Assembly (NCBI GenBank): GCA_022826685.1
Contig: JAJDUL010000060.1
Location: 1 to 64,000 of the forward strand
Length of the DNA: 64,000 bases
Direction: 5' to 3'
Source: Gemmatimonadota bacterium
GTDB taxonomy: Bacteria > Gemmatimonadota > Gemmatimonadetes > Palauibacterales > Palauibacteraceae
Positions 41,524 through 51,204 of this stretch are shown one piece after another (positions within the stretch are counted from its first letter, which is position 1; the number at the start of each line of letters is the position of its first letter). Position numbers and translations under genes: made by a program. The notes beneath the pieces were generated by a model. The model searched no databases. It had not been told where the DNA came from and saw only the letters and a list, made by a program, of their open reading frames with translations.

Positions 41524-42261
41524 CTAGTGTGGTGTCGCGGAAATCCGCCAGCTGCGGGGAGGCGGGGAACGGGCCAGCAGGAGCCGCGCCGCGGCCGAGC
41601 GGGCCGCCTCCGCAAGCGTTCGAGTCGGGCACGGCCGCGTCGGCATCACGCGGGCGCACTCCCTCATGCTCGCCTGCGACCAGCAGGAGTCGGGCTGACC
41701 GTCGCCGCACTCCCGAATGAGCAGTTTCACGCTGGCGGGCAGTCGGAGGACCGCGTCGCTGTCGAACTCCTCGGCCACCGCGTAGCGCAGGAGGTCTTCG
41801 GCCAGACCCCGTTCCACGCCGGCGTCCAGCAACTCCTCGAGGGAGACGACCAGGAGAGCAAAATCGGCGCGATCACGTCCCAGCCGCATCAGAAGCTCGC
41901 GCCCCACGCCGCGGCGAAGGGCATCCGCGGCTTTCTCGAGCGCGATCGGCGCCGCCCCCGGACCGACGACGGACGCCGCATCCCGCAACTCCGCGGCGAA
42001 GGTGTCGACGGCGGCGAGGACGACCTCCGGAGACATCCCCTTCGCCACGCCCTCCATCGCCTTGTCGATCAGCAGACCTCGGGGCAGACCGTCCTGGACA
42101 CCCGCCTCTATGACGGAAAGGGTACGCGCTGCATAAACCGCGCCCAGATGACGGCTGAAGCGCGCGCGCGTGTCCTGACCCGCAAGCGGCATCGCGAGCC
42201 CGAGTAGGATGGCGCCGAGGCACACGGCCGCGGGAGCACGGCGCCACAGGGCTTTTGCCAC
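41524..42261 (-). CDS. Secreted helical protein downstream of the sigma/CBM48 pair
   Basis: A 245-residue predicted exported protein with a signal peptide (AAVCLGAILLGLAMPLAGQ). The mature part is helical, with loose repeats of the type GLPRGLLIDKAMEGVAKGM, GVGRELLMRLGRD, and GVERGLAEDLLRYAV, each a G-hydrophobic pair followed by a Leu-rich helix. A cysteine-rich patch near the C-terminus (ECGDGQPDSCWSQ, MRECARVMPTRPCP) contains four cysteines. No domain recognised. It begins 16 bases after the stop of the CBM48 anti-sigma-like gene on the same strand, so it is probably the third gene of that operon. Confidence 0.7.
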   Translation of the reverse strand: MAKALWRRAPAAVCLGAILLGLAMPLAGQDTRARFSRHLGAVYAARTLSVIEAGVQDGLPRGLLIDKAMEGVAKGMSPEVVLAAVDTFAAELRDAASVVGPGAAPIALEKAADALRRGVGRELLMRLGRDRADFALLVVSLEELLDAGVERGLAEDLLRYAVAEEFDSDAVLRLPASVKLLIRECGDGQPDSCWSQASMRECARVMPTRPCPTRTLAEAARSAAARLLLARSPPPRSWRISATPH

Positions 42262-42277: not shown

Positions 42278-42919
42278 CTAGGGGGCCAGCGAGCGGGCGC
42301 CCGCGCCGCCCGTGATGGCGATCACGGCATTCTGGTTGCCGTAACCGTCCTCCACATAACGTTCCGCGTGCGGATCCGTGATCCAGGTCTCGCCGTCCAC
42401 GAGGAACATGTACTTGTGCACGCCGGGCGGGAGCTTCACCCGGCCGGTCCACACGCCGGTCCCGTAGGGATCGGCCAGCGCGACCTCCGGCTGCCAGTCG
42501 TTGAAGTCGCCCGCAACGTGGACCGACGCCGCGCCGGGCGCCTCTAGACGGAACTGCACGTAGTGGACTTCTTCACCCACGAGCGCCGTCGCCGCCCCCG
42601 CCGGCTCGGTGTACACGTTCTCCCGCGGCAACAGGAAGAACGTTGCAAGCACTGCGGCAGCAGCGAGTCCCAGCCAAGGCCGGACGCGCACGGAGCGGGG
42701 ATGCACCCACCAGTCCACGAGACTCGGCAAGGGCCGGCGCCTCTCCTGGCGAACCTCGGCCATGACCCTCGACTCGAGTCCGACCGGAGCTCCCTGCACC
42801 CCCGAATCCCGCACGTCCGACAGGAGGGCATCCCACCGCTCGGCTTCCCTGCGAAACTCCCGCGAGAGTTCCGACCGGTCGATTTCTCCATCCAGGTACA
42901 GCTTCAGATCGTCGTTCAT
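42278..42919 (-). CDS. Anti-sigma-like membrane protein with periplasmic CBM48/AMPK glycogen-binding domain
   Basis: A 213-residue bitopic protein. Residues 1-75 are charged and helical (LKLYLDGEIDRSELSREFRR), resembling cytoplasmic anti-sigma segments. A membrane helix follows at about 80-98 (WLGLAAAAVLATFFLL). The rest is an early-set CBM48/AMPK-beta-type glycogen-binding domain: VHYVQFRLEAPGAASVHVAG, DFNDWQ, GVWTGRVKLPPGVHKYMFLV, DGETWITDPHAERY. By topology the sugar-binding domain lies in the periplasm. The ATG overlaps the sigma-factor TGA (ATGA), so the two are translationally coupled as sigma/anti-sigma pairs usually are. It has no zinc-finger HxxxCxxC motif, so sigma binding is inferred from position. 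The CBM is normally found in cytoplasmic glycogen enzymes. Confidence 0.85.
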   Translation of the reverse strand: MNDDLKLYLDGEIDRSELSREFRREAERWDALLSDVRDSGVQGAPVGLESRVMAEVRQERRRPLPSLVDWWVHPRSVRVRPWLGLAAAAVLATFFLLPRENVYTEPAGAATALVGEEVHYVQFRLEAPGAASVHVAGDFNDWQPEVALADPYGTGVWTGRVKLPPGVHKYMFLVDGETWITDPHAERYVEDGYGNQNAVIAITGGAGARSLAP

Positions 42920-43506
42920 CGGTAGTTCTCTAACAGCACCTGTAACTGATCCCGAGCCCGATGGACGCGCATCTTCAACGCGGACACCGAAGCTCCAAGT
43001 CTCTCAGCCATCTCTTCGTACGACCAGCCCTCGACGTGCTTGAGGACGAAAGCTTCACGCTGTTCTTCGCTCAGTGACTGCAAGGCCCGGTATATCTGTT
43101 CCCGTATTTCCGCCCGTTCGGCGCGCGCCTCGGGAAGACCCCGCGTCGCCGTCAGCGGGCCGGCCGCCTCCAGCGATACTTCCCGCCGCGCCCGCCCCTT
43201 CAACTGATCCTTGCACAGGTTGACGGCGATTCGAAACAACCAGCCTCCCACCCGTTCCCGGTCACGGCAGCGGTCGAGGCTCCGAAAGCCGCGAATGAAC
43301 GTGCGCTGCACGATATCCGCGGCGTCGTCCGCGCGCCCGGTCATGCGCTCCGCGTAGCGGTACAGCACGTCCTTGTACCGGCGCACGAGAACCCCGTACG
43401 CCTCGCGATCGCCTTCGATTACGGCGGTCACGACATCCGCGTCGCTCGGTTCATCGTCCGGAACCCGACCCTCCGGCCCGATCCGAAAGATCTTCTCTTC
43501 GTGAAT
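42916..43506 (-). CDS. ECF RNA polymerase sigma factor, apparent ATT start
   Basis: A 196-residue sigma-70 family factor of the ECF type. Region 2 is clear (AYGVLVRRYKDVLYRYAERM, DAADIVQRTFIRGFRSL) and so is region 4 (LSEEQREAFVLKHVEGWSYE, EMAERLGASVSALKMRVHRA). The first in-frame ATG/GTG/TTG, GTG at 43431, gives only 171 residues and cuts into the usual N-terminus. Coding-like sequence continues upstream (PSDADVVTAVIEGDREAY) to an ATT at 43506, preceded by GAGGT 6 bases away; the in-frame stop is at 43531-43533. I therefore place the start at ATT 43506, giving a normal ECF length. It ends in ATGA overlap with the CBM48 anti-sigma-like gene, its probable regulator. Confidence 0.85.
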   Translation of the reverse strand: MHEEKIFRIGPEGRVPDDEPSDADVVTAVIEGDREAYGVLVRRYKDVLYRYAERMTGRADDAADIVQRTFIRGFRSLDRCRDRERVGGWLFRIAVNLCKDQLKGRARREVSLEAAGPLTATRGLPEARAERAEIREQIYRALQSLSEEQREAFVLKHVEGWSYEEMAERLGASVSALKMRVHRARDQLQVLLENYR

Positions 43507-43628
43507 AAGACGACCTCTATGGCTTCGCGGTCACTCGACCCGCCATCGGCCCGCAACCCTTTTCGTTCGTGATCAGGATCGGCAGTTCCAACTTAGCGGA
43601 ACGGTGATCCCCCAACTACCTTTGAGGC

Positions 43629-48242: not shown

Positions 48243-48902
48243 ATGGGGATGCCTTTGGCGGAGGAAACGCGAACGCGTAACGGATCGCCGGGCGACGCGA
48301 CCGGCCCCGGCTCCGGACCTGTGGAGCCGCCGGATCCCGGCGCGGACGAGCCCGGCCTCGTGGAGGCCGTGCAGGCCGGCGATTCGCGGGCGTTCTCCCT
48401 GTTCGTGACGAGATACACGGACCCGGCCTACGCGGTGGCGCTGTCGATTCTGCGCCACGAGCAGGACGCGGAAGACGCGGTGCAGGCCGCGTTCATTCGC
48501 GCCCTGGAGCGGATCGGGCAGTTGCGGCCGGGAAGCCGCTTCGGTCCGTGGTTCTATCGCGTGCTGAGGAGCACGTGCCTGAACCTCCGGCGGCGTGAGC
48601 TTCTGCGGACCCATTCGGAGCTGACGGACACGGCGGCGTCGCGGGACGATCCGCATCGCGAATTCGAGCGGAGGCACGCCCGGAAACAGGTGCTCGACGC
48701 GCTTGGGCAGCTGCCGGAACGACAGAGAACAGCAGTCATGATGTACGACCTTGAGGGGTACGATCACGCGGAGATCGCAAAGATTCTCGGGATCGCGGTC
48801 GGAACTTCGAGGGCGAACCTTCATCACGGCAGGCACGCGCTGCGCCGGCTTCTCGGCGAAGCGTCCGCCTCCGGCGCCGGAGGAGCAGATGAGGACGAAT
48901 AG
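48243..48902 (+). CDS. RNA polymerase sigma factor, ECF-like, with long N-terminal extension
   Basis: A 219-residue sigma-70 family protein. After a low-complexity Gly/Pro/Glu N-terminus of about 37 residues, region 2 appears (GDSRAFSLFVTRYTDPAYAV, DAEDAVQAAFIRALERI), then region 4 (LGQLPERQRTAVMMYDLEGY, DHAEIAKILGIAVGTSRANL). It would direct polymerase to the promoters of its regulon. The next gene, a short membrane protein overlapping its end by 14 bases, is the probable anti-sigma factor. Downstream lie a CpxP/Spy-like gene and a tripartite exporter, which suggests an envelope-stress role. Start ATG at 48243 or 48249. Confidence 0.9.
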   Translation: MGMPLAEETRTRNGSPGDATGPGSGPVEPPDPGADEPGLVEAVQAGDSRAFSLFVTRYTDPAYAVALSILRHEQDAEDAVQAAFIRALERIGQLRPGSRFGPWFYRVLRSTCLNLRRRELLRTHSELTDTAASRDDPHREFERRHARKQVLDALGQLPERQRTAVMMYDLEGYDHAEIAKILGIAVGTSRANLHHGRHALRRLLGEASASGAGGADEDE

Positions 48903-49299
48903 GCGAGATCAGAGTCGGGACGGCGGGCGCGGGCCCGCGTGGGCCGAGTATCTCGAGCCCCTGCGGCCCGATGACGTCACGCGGCGCCGCCTGCGCCGGA
49001 GCGTGATGGCCGCGGCGGAGGCGCTGTTCGAGCGGCGACCCCTCTCCTGGCTCGACGTGACCGCAAGCTGGTCCGCGGCGCTCGCGCCGCTGGCCGCGGG
49101 CCTGCTCGTCGCGGCCGGCGTTCTGTTGTACCGCATCTCCCTGCCGGATGCGCCCGAGTTCGCCGCAGGCGTGGATTCGGAGCCGGTCGGGCTGGTGCGC
49201 TCGCTGGCGCCGGACGCCGAAGCCCCGCCCGCGCTGCTCATCGACCTGGCCGAGCCGAGCCGCGACGCGGTGCTGACGGCCGCACTCATCAATCCGTAA
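48889..49299 (+). CDS. Probable anti-sigma membrane protein
   Basis: A 136-residue protein whose ATG lies inside the sigma-factor gene (14-base overlap) with AGGAG 3 bases upstream. A cytoplasmic N-terminus of about 60 residues (EYLEPLRPDDVTRRRLRRSV, MAAAEALFERRPLSWLDV) precedes one membrane helix (SAALAPLAAGLLVAAGVLLY, about 65-85) and a short periplasmic tail with acidic and Leu/Ala residues. Overlap with the sigma gene and one-helix topology are typical of anti-sigma factors. No zinc-binding motif or known family is visible, so the role is inferred from position. Confidence 0.65.
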   Translation: MRTNRRDQSRDGGRGPAWAEYLEPLRPDDVTRRRLRRSVMAAAEALFERRPLSWLDVTASWSAALAPLAAGLLVAAGVLLYRISLPDAPEFAAGVDSEPVGLVRSLAPDAEAPPALLIDLAEPSRDAVLTAALINP

Positions 49300-49330
49300 C
49301 TTGCTGAAACGCGACACGAACCGGGTGCGT

Positions 49331-49798
49331 ATGGACACTTCAAGATTCCGGGCGACGCTGCTCCTGACGCTCGTCTTCGCGACGGGCGCCGCGGTCGGCG
49401 TCGCGGCGGACCGCCTCGATATGTTCGCCGGCGCGGACGAGGCAGAGCCGGCGGCGGAGACCGTCTCTCCGGACACGCGTGAGCGCGATGACCGATCGCG
49501 GGGGCGGCAGACCACGATCGAGCAGTTCGCCGATGAACTGGGCCTTACGGCCGAGCAGCGGTCTCGGATTGAAGGTTTCCTCGACCACTACCGCGACGAG
49601 GCGCGCGCGTTGCGCGAGGCGGTTCAGCCGCAATACCGGGCGCTGCTGGACTCGGTCCGGACTCAGATCGAGTCGGTGCTGACGGAGGAGCAGGGTGAGG
49701 ACTACCGGGAGTTGCTGCGGCAGCAATACGGGAACGGGCGCGAGCGCGGCGGGGAACGGGGATCCCAGGGGCGTGAGGACCCGCAGCGAAACAACTGA
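49331..49798 (+). CDS. Periplasmic CpxP/Spy-like protein
   Basis: A 155-residue protein with an N-terminal signal or anchor (ATLLLTLVFATGAAVGVAA) and a helical domain of the CpxP/Spy/heavy-metal-resistance type: FADELGLTAEQRSRIEGFLD, HYRDEARALREAVQPQYRAL, LDSVRTQIESVLTEEQ. These helices form cradle-like chaperones that bind unfolded periplasmic proteins or metals. The tail is rich in Arg, Gly, Glu and Gln. Start ATG at 49331 is preferred over TTG at 49301. It lies between the sigma/regulator pair and the TolC-type exporter, which fits an envelope-stress unit. Confidence 0.75.
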   Translation: MDTSRFRATLLLTLVFATGAAVGVAADRLDMFAGADEAEPAAETVSPDTRERDDRSRGRQTTIEQFADELGLTAEQRSRIEGFLDHYRDEARALREAVQPQYRALLDSVRTQIESVLTEEQGEDYRELLRQQYGNGRERGGERGSQGREDPQRNN

Positions 49799-49842
49799 CA
49801 ACCGAGAGACGTCAAGTCAGCCCCTCAGGGGGCGAGGAAACG

Positions 49843-51204
49843 ATGACCATTCGACATAGATCAGGGTGCGGAGGCCGGCCGAGCGCCGGTCTTCGTCGAT
49901 GGGGGTTTGTCCTGCTGCCGGCGATCCTGCTTGCGGGAGCGTCGCCCCGGATGGCCGAGGCGCAGGTGCAGGCGAGCGACAACGTTCGCCAGATCACGGT
50001 CGATGAAGCGGTCGAGATCGCGCTGCGCCGCAACCCTCAGCTGCTCCAGGCCTACTCGCAGATCGAGATGGCCGAGCACAACCAGTTGAGCGCGATCGGC
50101 CAGCTCCTCCCGTCAGTCAACATGAGCTTTGGTTACTCGAACTCATCGACGGGACGGCTCGACGCTCTCAGCCAGGGGATCGTCGCGACGAGCTACTCCA
50201 CTCAGATCAACGCCGGATACACGCTCTTCAACGGCTGGAGCCGGTTCACGGACCTGAAGGGCGCCCGCCTGGGAATCGTCGAACAGAACGCCCGCTATCG
50301 CGAGGCCGAATTCCAGGTCATCCAGGCGGTGAAGCAGGCGTACTCAGCGAACGTCGCCGCGCGCGAACTCGTCGCCGTCGAGGAACGCCGCGTCCAGCGG
50401 CAGGCGGACCAGCTGGAGTTCGTCAGGCAGCAGCTGGAGCTGGGACGGGCGACGCGCTCGGACTCCCTCCGCTCGCAAGTGGACCTCAACAACGCGCAAC
50501 TGGCGCTTCTGAACGCGGAGAACAACGCGCGCACGCGGACCTTCGAACTCACCGAGGTCGTCGGCTCCGAAACCCTCGTGGGACCGACCGCCGAGGCGGA
50601 ACTCGCGATGGCCGCGATCCCCTTCACGCGCGACGAACTGTTCGCGATGGCCGATGTGACGGCTCCAGCGCTGCAGGCCGCCTCCGCGGCCGTCGAGGCC
50701 GCCGAGGCGGCGGTGTCGAGCGCGCGCTCCAGCTACCTGCCGTCGATCACGGTCGGCGCGGGCTACGGCTGGGCAAATCAGGAGTTCCCTCCATCCAACC
50801 GCTCCTGGTCGTTCTCGCTGCGCGGCAGCTATCCCCTCTTCAACGGCTTCCAGCGCGAGACGCAGGTGTTTCGCGCCCGGGCCTCGGCGGACCAGGCCCG
50901 GCAATCCGAACGGGCGGCGCGACTGAACATCAGCTCGCTGCTCGACGCACGCTACGCGACGGCCCAGTCCGCGCTCGCGGGGGTGGATCTCGCAGAGCGG
51001 AACGTCGAACTCAGCGAGGAGAGCCTCCGGGTCGTGCAGGAGCGGTACCAGCTCGGCCTCGCCACCATCCTCGAACTCCAGGACGCGCAGATCACGCTCA
51101 CGCAGGCGGAGGTCGATCTCGTCAGCGGCCGGTTCCAATACGAGGCGGCGCTCGCGGGGATCGAGGCCCTCCTCGGCCGGAGGCTCGACCAGCCGCAGCC
51201 CTGA
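49843..51204 (+). CDS. TolC-family outer-membrane efflux protein
   Basis: A 453-residue outer-membrane channel. A signal peptide (FVLLPAILLAGASPRMAEAQ) precedes two OEP repeats: ITVDEAVEIALRRNPQLLQA, YSQIEMAEHNQLSAIGQLLP, SVNMSFGYS, and later VTAPALQAASAAVEAAEAAV, SSARSSYLPSITVGAGYGW, QERYQLGLATILELQDAQIT. This is the TolC fold with helical barrel and beta-barrel. It would form the outer part of the exporter whose adaptor and permease follow within 1.7 kb. Distance to the adaptor start is 130 bases. Confidence 0.93.
   Translation: MTIRHRSGCGGRPSAGLRRWGFVLLPAILLAGASPRMAEAQVQASDNVRQITVDEAVEIALRRNPQLLQAYSQIEMAEHNQLSAIGQLLPSVNMSFGYSNSSTGRLDALSQGIVATSYSTQINAGYTLFNGWSRFTDLKGARLGIVEQNARYREAEFQVIQAVKQAYSANVAARELVAVEERRVQRQADQLEFVRQQLELGRATRSDSLRSQVDLNNAQLALLNAENNARTRTFELTEVVGSETLVGPTAEAELAMAAIPFTRDELFAMADVTAPALQAASAAVEAAEAAVSSARSSYLPSITVGAGYGWANQEFPPSNRSWSFSLRGSYPLFNGFQRETQVFRARASADQARQSERAARLNISSLLDARYATAQSALAGVDLAERNVELSEESLRVVQERYQLGLATILELQDAQITLTQAEVDLVSGRFQYEAALAGIEALLGRRLDQPQP

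Follow-up and report, generated by a model that had tools for sequence, protein, structure and literature searches.

A predicted class I anti-sigma factor with a periplasmic CBM48 domain is encoded between an ECF sigma factor and an exported helical protein in Gemmatimonadota

What could a domain of the glycogen-binding type do on a membrane protein whose gene overlaps the gene of an ECF sigma factor, and what would such a pair sense? This question is raised by a locus of a sponge-symbiont bacterium, Candidatus Palauibacter or a very close relative (Gemmatimonadota), and the locus lies in a window of 64,000 nucleotides, which is the whole stretch of DNA that was analysed. The locus is a three-gene set on the minus strand in the order sigma factor, CBM48 anti-sigma factor, and a third gene, HPP. 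The preliminary description placed the locus at 42278-43506. The lower end is the end of the anti-sigma open reading frame, and no ATG, GTG, or TTG start is found at the upper end, 43506. The HPP gene (41524-42261) and the promoter (43508-43534) were both absent from that description. The features of the locus are as follows.

43508 to 43534, minus strand: candidate ECF-type promoter (-35 GTGACC at 43534-43529, 15-base spacer, -10 TCGTCT at 43513-43508)
42916 to 43491, minus strand: ECF sigma factor, regions 2 and 4 (Sigma70_r2, Sigma70_r4_2; frame kept upstream of 43431)
42278 to 42919, minus strand: predicted membrane anti-sigma factor with periplasmic CBM48, 213 amino acids (Pfam, profiles, model, Foldseek)
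42728 to 42919, minus strand: predicted class I anti-sigma domain, residues 1-64, zinc-less (RsiW profile matches, model helices)
42629 to 42679, minus strand: single transmembrane helix, residues 81-97 (model helix, hydropathy, positive-inside counts)
42311 to 42565, minus strand: predicted periplasmic CBM48/AMPK-beta-type domain, residues 119-203 (Pfam, Foldseek 1z0m, residue mapping)
41524 to 42261, minus strand: third gene, HPP, predicted exported all-helical protein (locus counts 55/61, reciprocal 29/30)

The first gene product was matched by Sigma70_r4_2 (5e-19) and Sigma70_r2 (7e-17) of Pfam and by TIGR02937 above cut-off. It has sigma-70 regions 2 and 4 only, as in ECF sigma factors. 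The sigma open reading frame ends at 42916 and the anti-sigma open reading frame starts at 42919, and both overlap by ATGA as described earlier. The sole common start codon in the sigma frame is GTG at 43431, and this codon is not kept in relatives. The sigma start is probably a non-standard ATC at 43491 because the reading frame is conserved upstream of the GTG. A normal start codon seems to be missing in the sigma gene (43485-43513), and the shared candidates are only ATC or ATT codons. A purine-rich stretch precedes these candidate starts, as in locus L055 where it reads AAAGGAGGG-ATT.

The N-terminal part of the second protein is assigned to the class I anti-sigma domains (ASDIs) by its homology to known ASDIs, an assignment that holds in the profile searches and from which sigma binding is predicted. 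The profile of 50 homologues matched RsiW of the SigW-RsiW crystal structure (6e-5) over positions 5-64. The profile of 24 N-termini, from which the zinc-bearing members had been left out, matched RsiW (1.8e-9), RsrA (0.0013), and DdvA (0.0095) as the top PDB matches, and MucA (0.13), RseA (0.16), and another RseA (0.18) at ranks four to six. All six best PDB matches are anti-sigma factors. The HxxxCxxC zinc-finger motif is found in two distant homologues, L081 and L137, and zf-HC2 is over the Pfam cut-off in L081 (an Atribacteria record, 33 bits). The Hx3Cx2C zinc motif is absent from the sequence of the window protein. This motif is optional in the class, and about 44% of ASDIs are without it (PMC7406223).

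Residues 1-64 contain the SRVMAEV helix and the LDGE motif, and D10 in the LDGE motif is the sole invariant residue of the N-terminal alignment. The LDGE stretch is missing in several distant Gemmatimonadota anti-sigma factors. In RseA, D11 is a conserved helix-1 position in contact with sigma4, and helix 4 contacts sigma2 (PMC7406223). By our reading, D10 would correspond to RseA D11. The model of the protein exhibits helices at 3-9, 20-40, and 48-60, followed by one in the membrane (81-96) and by a domain of beta structure. The N-terminus had been called anti-sigma-like in the preliminary description and sigma binding had been expected of it. Both points are upheld, the former by the RsiW match and the zinc-finger versions in L081 and L137, and the latter, as a prediction, by the 24-homologue profile and the position of D10.

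The protein has one transmembrane helix at about residues 81-97. The N-terminus is predicted inside and the CBM48 domain in the periplasm because K/R residues are more abundant before the helix than after it (3.0 vs 1.28 in 90 homologues), which agrees with the location outside the inner membrane that had been proposed. The C-terminal domain is of CBM48/AMPK type by both fold and Pfam, also as proposed. AMPK1_CBM (5e-13, residues 129-203) and CBM_48 (1.6e-6) are both above cut-off, and the 1z0m chains of the AMPK beta glycogen-binding domain were matched by Foldseek with TM scores of 0.78-0.88 by target length.

Residue mapping placed W142, W179, Y193, and N197 on the sugar face. The reference was a list of six residues that we take to be the sugar contacts of AMPK beta1 (1Z0N). 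Among 84 anti-sigma factors, the W100 place is occupied by W in 84, the W133 place by W in 75, the N150 place by N in 63, and the L146 place by an aromatic residue in 80. The exception is the K126-equivalent, which is not kept and is replaced in most cases by Met or Ala. The aromatic sugar-binding residues that had been asked of this face are thus present, with the AMPK tryptophan pair kept in 84/84 and 75/84, and sugar binding by the CBM48 domain is plausible from these residues.

The source genome has no other AMPK1_CBM match, and GlgB is the sole other carrier of CBM_48. A divergent glgB/glgA pair is located in the source genome (L203; G000:C39, about 66-68 kb), which probably makes cytoplasmic glycogen apart from the sigma system. 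The possibility that the CBM48 domain senses the cell's own cytoplasmic glycogen was rejected on topology and on the location of glgA/glgB elsewhere.

The observation is real and not a product of chance because all 16 congeners searched carry the CBM48 membrane protein gene and the protein is matched in 43 of 60 relatives. Other carriers, according to record titles, include Myxococcales, Nitrospirota, Thermodesulfovibrionales, Atribacteria, Rhodothermaceae, Salinivenus, Balneolales, Deltaproteobacteria, and Eisenbacteria. When the anti-sigma factor alone was used as query, 79 loci were found, and the sigma gene is followed by the CBM48 protein gene in 61 of them. Both genes overlap or nearly overlap in most of the 61 loci. 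The pairing that was to be checked in Gemmatimonadota is kept there and also across other phyla.

The third gene accompanies this pair. HPP adjoins the CBM48 anti-sigma gene in nearly all Gemmatimonadota loci examined. It is found in 55 of the 61 loci with sigma and CBM48 anti-sigma genes, which represent several phyla, and in none of the 14 CBM48 loci that lack sigma (Fisher 7e-11, an indicative value given the phylogenetic relatedness of the loci). With HPP alone as query, the family was found in 80 of 121 Gemmatimonadota genomes. Among the 30 best-scoring loci, which are no random draw, a CBM48 open reading frame lies beside HPP in 29, the remaining one is at a contig end, and a sigma gene lies within a short flank in 25. 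HPP as a chance neighbour was rejected on the reciprocal count (29/30) and on 55/61 vs 0/14.

The start of HPP is signal-peptide-like, the family core is P..PL..K..EG.AK, and the AlphaFold model is all-alpha and solenoid-like (pLDDT 89). No Pfam or NCBIfam family was found for HPP. The structure search of the PDB returned mainly designed helical proteins with no significant match, and in the sequence matches to designed PPR/TPR proteins, supported stretches were few or absent. HPP appears to be a new family of exported all-helical proteins. Its role is read from gene order alone, by which HPP may be an accessory regulator in a position like that of RseB in the RseA system, although these searches gave no similarity between the two proteins. 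The gene order differs in some Gemmatimonadales (L083, L121, and L136), where CBM48 genes are followed by sigma and HPP. Bipolaricaulota/Acetothermia-type loci (L106, L110, L132, L133, and L139) have sigma and CBM48 anti-sigma genes with no recognisable HPP. The anti-sigma factor of L132, a record titled Thermotoga, is identical to that of L133.

Another open reading frame with CBM48 at its extreme C-terminus is found in 30 of the 61 loci. This second CBM48 protein has a signal peptide followed by beta-barrel-like sequence, with about 300 residues before the CBM48 domain. The barrel call is based on sequence reading and on a weak match of one member to OMP_b-brl of Pfam (0.006, below cut-off). 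If the protein is a barrel, its C-terminal CBM48 domain would face the periplasm. N150 is kept in 12 of the 30 second CBM48 proteins. No second exported CBM48 protein was found in the Palauibacter genome, where it is lost.

The sequence GTGACC-N15-TCGTCT is located at 43534-43508 upstream of sigma and is kept in 10/10 aligned congeneric or near sequences. A relaxed motif is found 21 times upstream of sigma in related loci vs 1.45 expected from shuffles. This sequence is a candidate autoregulatory promoter of the ECF type. It has a single exact copy within the window. The second exact copy in the source genome is located 24 bases before a gene for a 387-amino-acid lipoprotein, and this promoter is kept in nine Palauibacter genomes. 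With one mismatch allowed, the source genome has 21 sites, a count that is uninformative by itself (51 for a wrong-spacing control) and becomes informative with the position of the sites relative to genes. The N15 sites are intergenic in 10/21 vs 1/30 for a control with these hexamers at a 10-base spacing (P=2e-4), and both intergenic and followed by a signal-peptide gene in 5/21 vs 0/30 (P=0.009), by an automatic position test that misfiles some sites such as the 387-amino-acid lipoprotein site.

The candidate regulon is defined by the promoter pattern only. The genes after promoter copies include those for lipoproteins, carboxypeptidase-regulatory-like proteins, and a barrel-like protein. 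These genes are candidates only because at least one further ECF factor is encoded in the genome, and there may be more with similar promoters. Three exact promoter copies are found in G035, one of them before HPP. An exported protein with FecR and DUF6600 domains is also a candidate regulon gene product (L213 1598-3025, G000:C35). DUF4382 lipoproteins were also noted (L032 4959-6095, L146 265-933). One sister lineage has such a gene directly before sigma, and similar-looking lipoproteins are found in others. In G039, a DUF4382 lipoprotein gene is preceded by a sequence identical to the promoter of sigma.

Taken as a whole, the locus can be read as follows. The class I anti-sigma domain would hold the ECF sigma factor at the inner membrane. 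The anti-sigma factor would cross the membrane once, and its periplasmic CBM48 domain would act as the receptor together with HPP. In many lineages outside Palauibacter, the outer-membrane barrel-like CBM48 protein would complete a trans-envelope set. The trigger would be a change in the periplasm, either a glycan bound to the CBM48 face or contact lost or gained with HPP or with the outer-membrane CBM48 protein. The sigma factor would then be freed, probably via regulated proteolysis that ends at RseP, which is present in the source genome. Free sigma would transcribe its own operon from GTGACC-N15-TCGTCT and also genes for lipoproteins, outer-membrane proteins, and other exported proteins. 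We consider this mechanism as a whole, with an ECF sigma factor, a CBM48 anti-sigma receptor, an HPP accessory, and an output of envelope proteins, to be rather probable.

Domain-domain contact or an envelope signal is a serious alternative to a sugar signal because of HPP and the second, outer-membrane-type CBM48 protein. The CBM48 domain may be a protein-contact module that pairs with the outer-membrane CBM48 domain, with HPP, or with both, and in this way reports on the spacing or assembly of the envelope with no sugar taking part. This is possible, at less than even weight, and it is consistent with two CBM48 proteins of one operon predicted in two membranes, with the nearly exceptionless tie of HPP to the CBM48 anti-sigma factor, and with the abundance of envelope proteins in the candidate regulon. 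However, surface tryptophans of the sugar-stacking kind are conserved though the fold should not need them, and the anti-sigma CBM48 domain of Palauibacter must work without the second exported protein. It is a tentative and somewhat doubtful proposal that both periplasmic CBM48 domains, on the inner-membrane anti-sigma factor and the outer-membrane barrel, report glycan or envelope state to sigma together with HPP in many phyla.

The preliminary description had proposed a sugar- or glucan-sensing sigma switch, of which the sigma switch is supported and the glucan part is not. In a glucan switch, the periplasmic CBM48 domain would bind an alpha-glucan or maltodextrin-like sugar and sigma would induce genes for its use. 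The conserved W100, W133, L146, and N150 places, the sugar-binding CBM48/AMPK domains among the best sequence and fold matches, and RsgI as a precedent for a CBM as anti-sigma receptor (PMC4711584) all speak for it. However, the K126-equivalent is lost, N150 is kept in a minority of the second CBM48 proteins, and no glucan enzyme or transporter was found in the operon or the candidate regulon. The glgA/glgB pair acts in the cytoplasm, and neither an exact nor a one-mismatch promoter copy was found there. We regard this reading as unlikely. Glucan use is disfavoured because lipoproteins and other exported proteins, and not glucan enzymes, abound in the candidate regulon, and envelope control is better supported than glucan sensing. 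It is highly improbable that the CBM48 membrane protein is a translationally coupled, sigma-controlled effector and no anti-sigma factor, since anti-sigma factors hold the six best places of the N-terminal profile, L081 has the zinc-finger version, and most of the 61 loci exhibit overlap or near-overlap with sigma, even though some homologues have so short or divergent an N-terminus that no anti-sigma domain is clear in it.

The preferred mechanism was compared with known systems. In RsgI of Clostridium thermocellum, a membrane anti-sigma factor has a CBM as its outside receptor (PMC4711584). SigI/RsgI is the closest working analogue, though of a different family. In both systems, the outside part of the membrane anti-sigma factor is a carbohydrate-binding module. 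SigI activates its own operon, as the sigma factor here may do. However, SigI is no standard ECF factor, RsgI-N is no class I anti-sigma domain, and the outside parts of RsgI are CBM3, CBM42, PA14, or GH10 on a Gram-positive surface with cellulosome genes as regulon. SigI/RsgI also has no HPP or outer-membrane partner. The window proteins have no match to the RsgI model and the sigma factor is of the ECF type, which places them outside the RsgI family. ASDIs of the RsiW/RseA type share the homologous N-terminal domain, one transmembrane helix with the N-terminus inside, and the overlap with the sigma gene, but the extracytoplasmic region of RseA/RsiW is replaced here by CBM48. AMPK beta/CBM48 domains share the fold and most sugar-contact residues, whereas the domain here belongs to an anti-sigma factor, is predicted to lie outside the inner membrane, and has Met or Ala in place of the K126-equivalent. 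In trans-envelope signalling of the FecR/FecA type, a sigma factor, an inner-membrane anti-sigma factor, and an outer-membrane protein are encoded together. By prediction, these three kinds of protein are co-encoded in the loci with a second CBM48 protein and periplasmic contact is possible, but a TonB receptor and the FecR C-terminal domain are both absent, and the paired domains are CBM48.

No description of a CBM48/AMPK-type anti-sigma factor was found in the open literature searched, a scope that leaves the main ECF classification outside. Within that scope, the earlier remark that no described case of this fusion was known agrees with our search. Within the same literature, we judge that the ECF/class I anti-sigma switch occurs here in an undescribed and widespread variant, which looks like envelope-state sensing by an undescribed route. 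If this is true, the AMPK/CBM48 energy-sensing fold, known inside cells, has been reused as a periplasmic receptor. The switch would then have a marker family in some two thirds of the Gemmatimonadota genomes sampled and in several other phyla, and an unannotated protein family (HPP) would be tied to a function. It would also account for membrane-anchored or exported CBM48 proteins that are unlike glucan enzymes, and GTGACC-N15-TCGTCT would be a simple promoter to follow.

The window also contains a second ECF sigma operon (48243-51204) with its sigma gene at 48243-48902. An open reading frame without Pfam match (48751-49299) overlaps this sigma gene and may hold its anti-sigma factor. The operon further encodes an LTXXQ protein (Spy/CpxP-like, weak) at 49301-49798, followed by a TolC-like gene from 49843.
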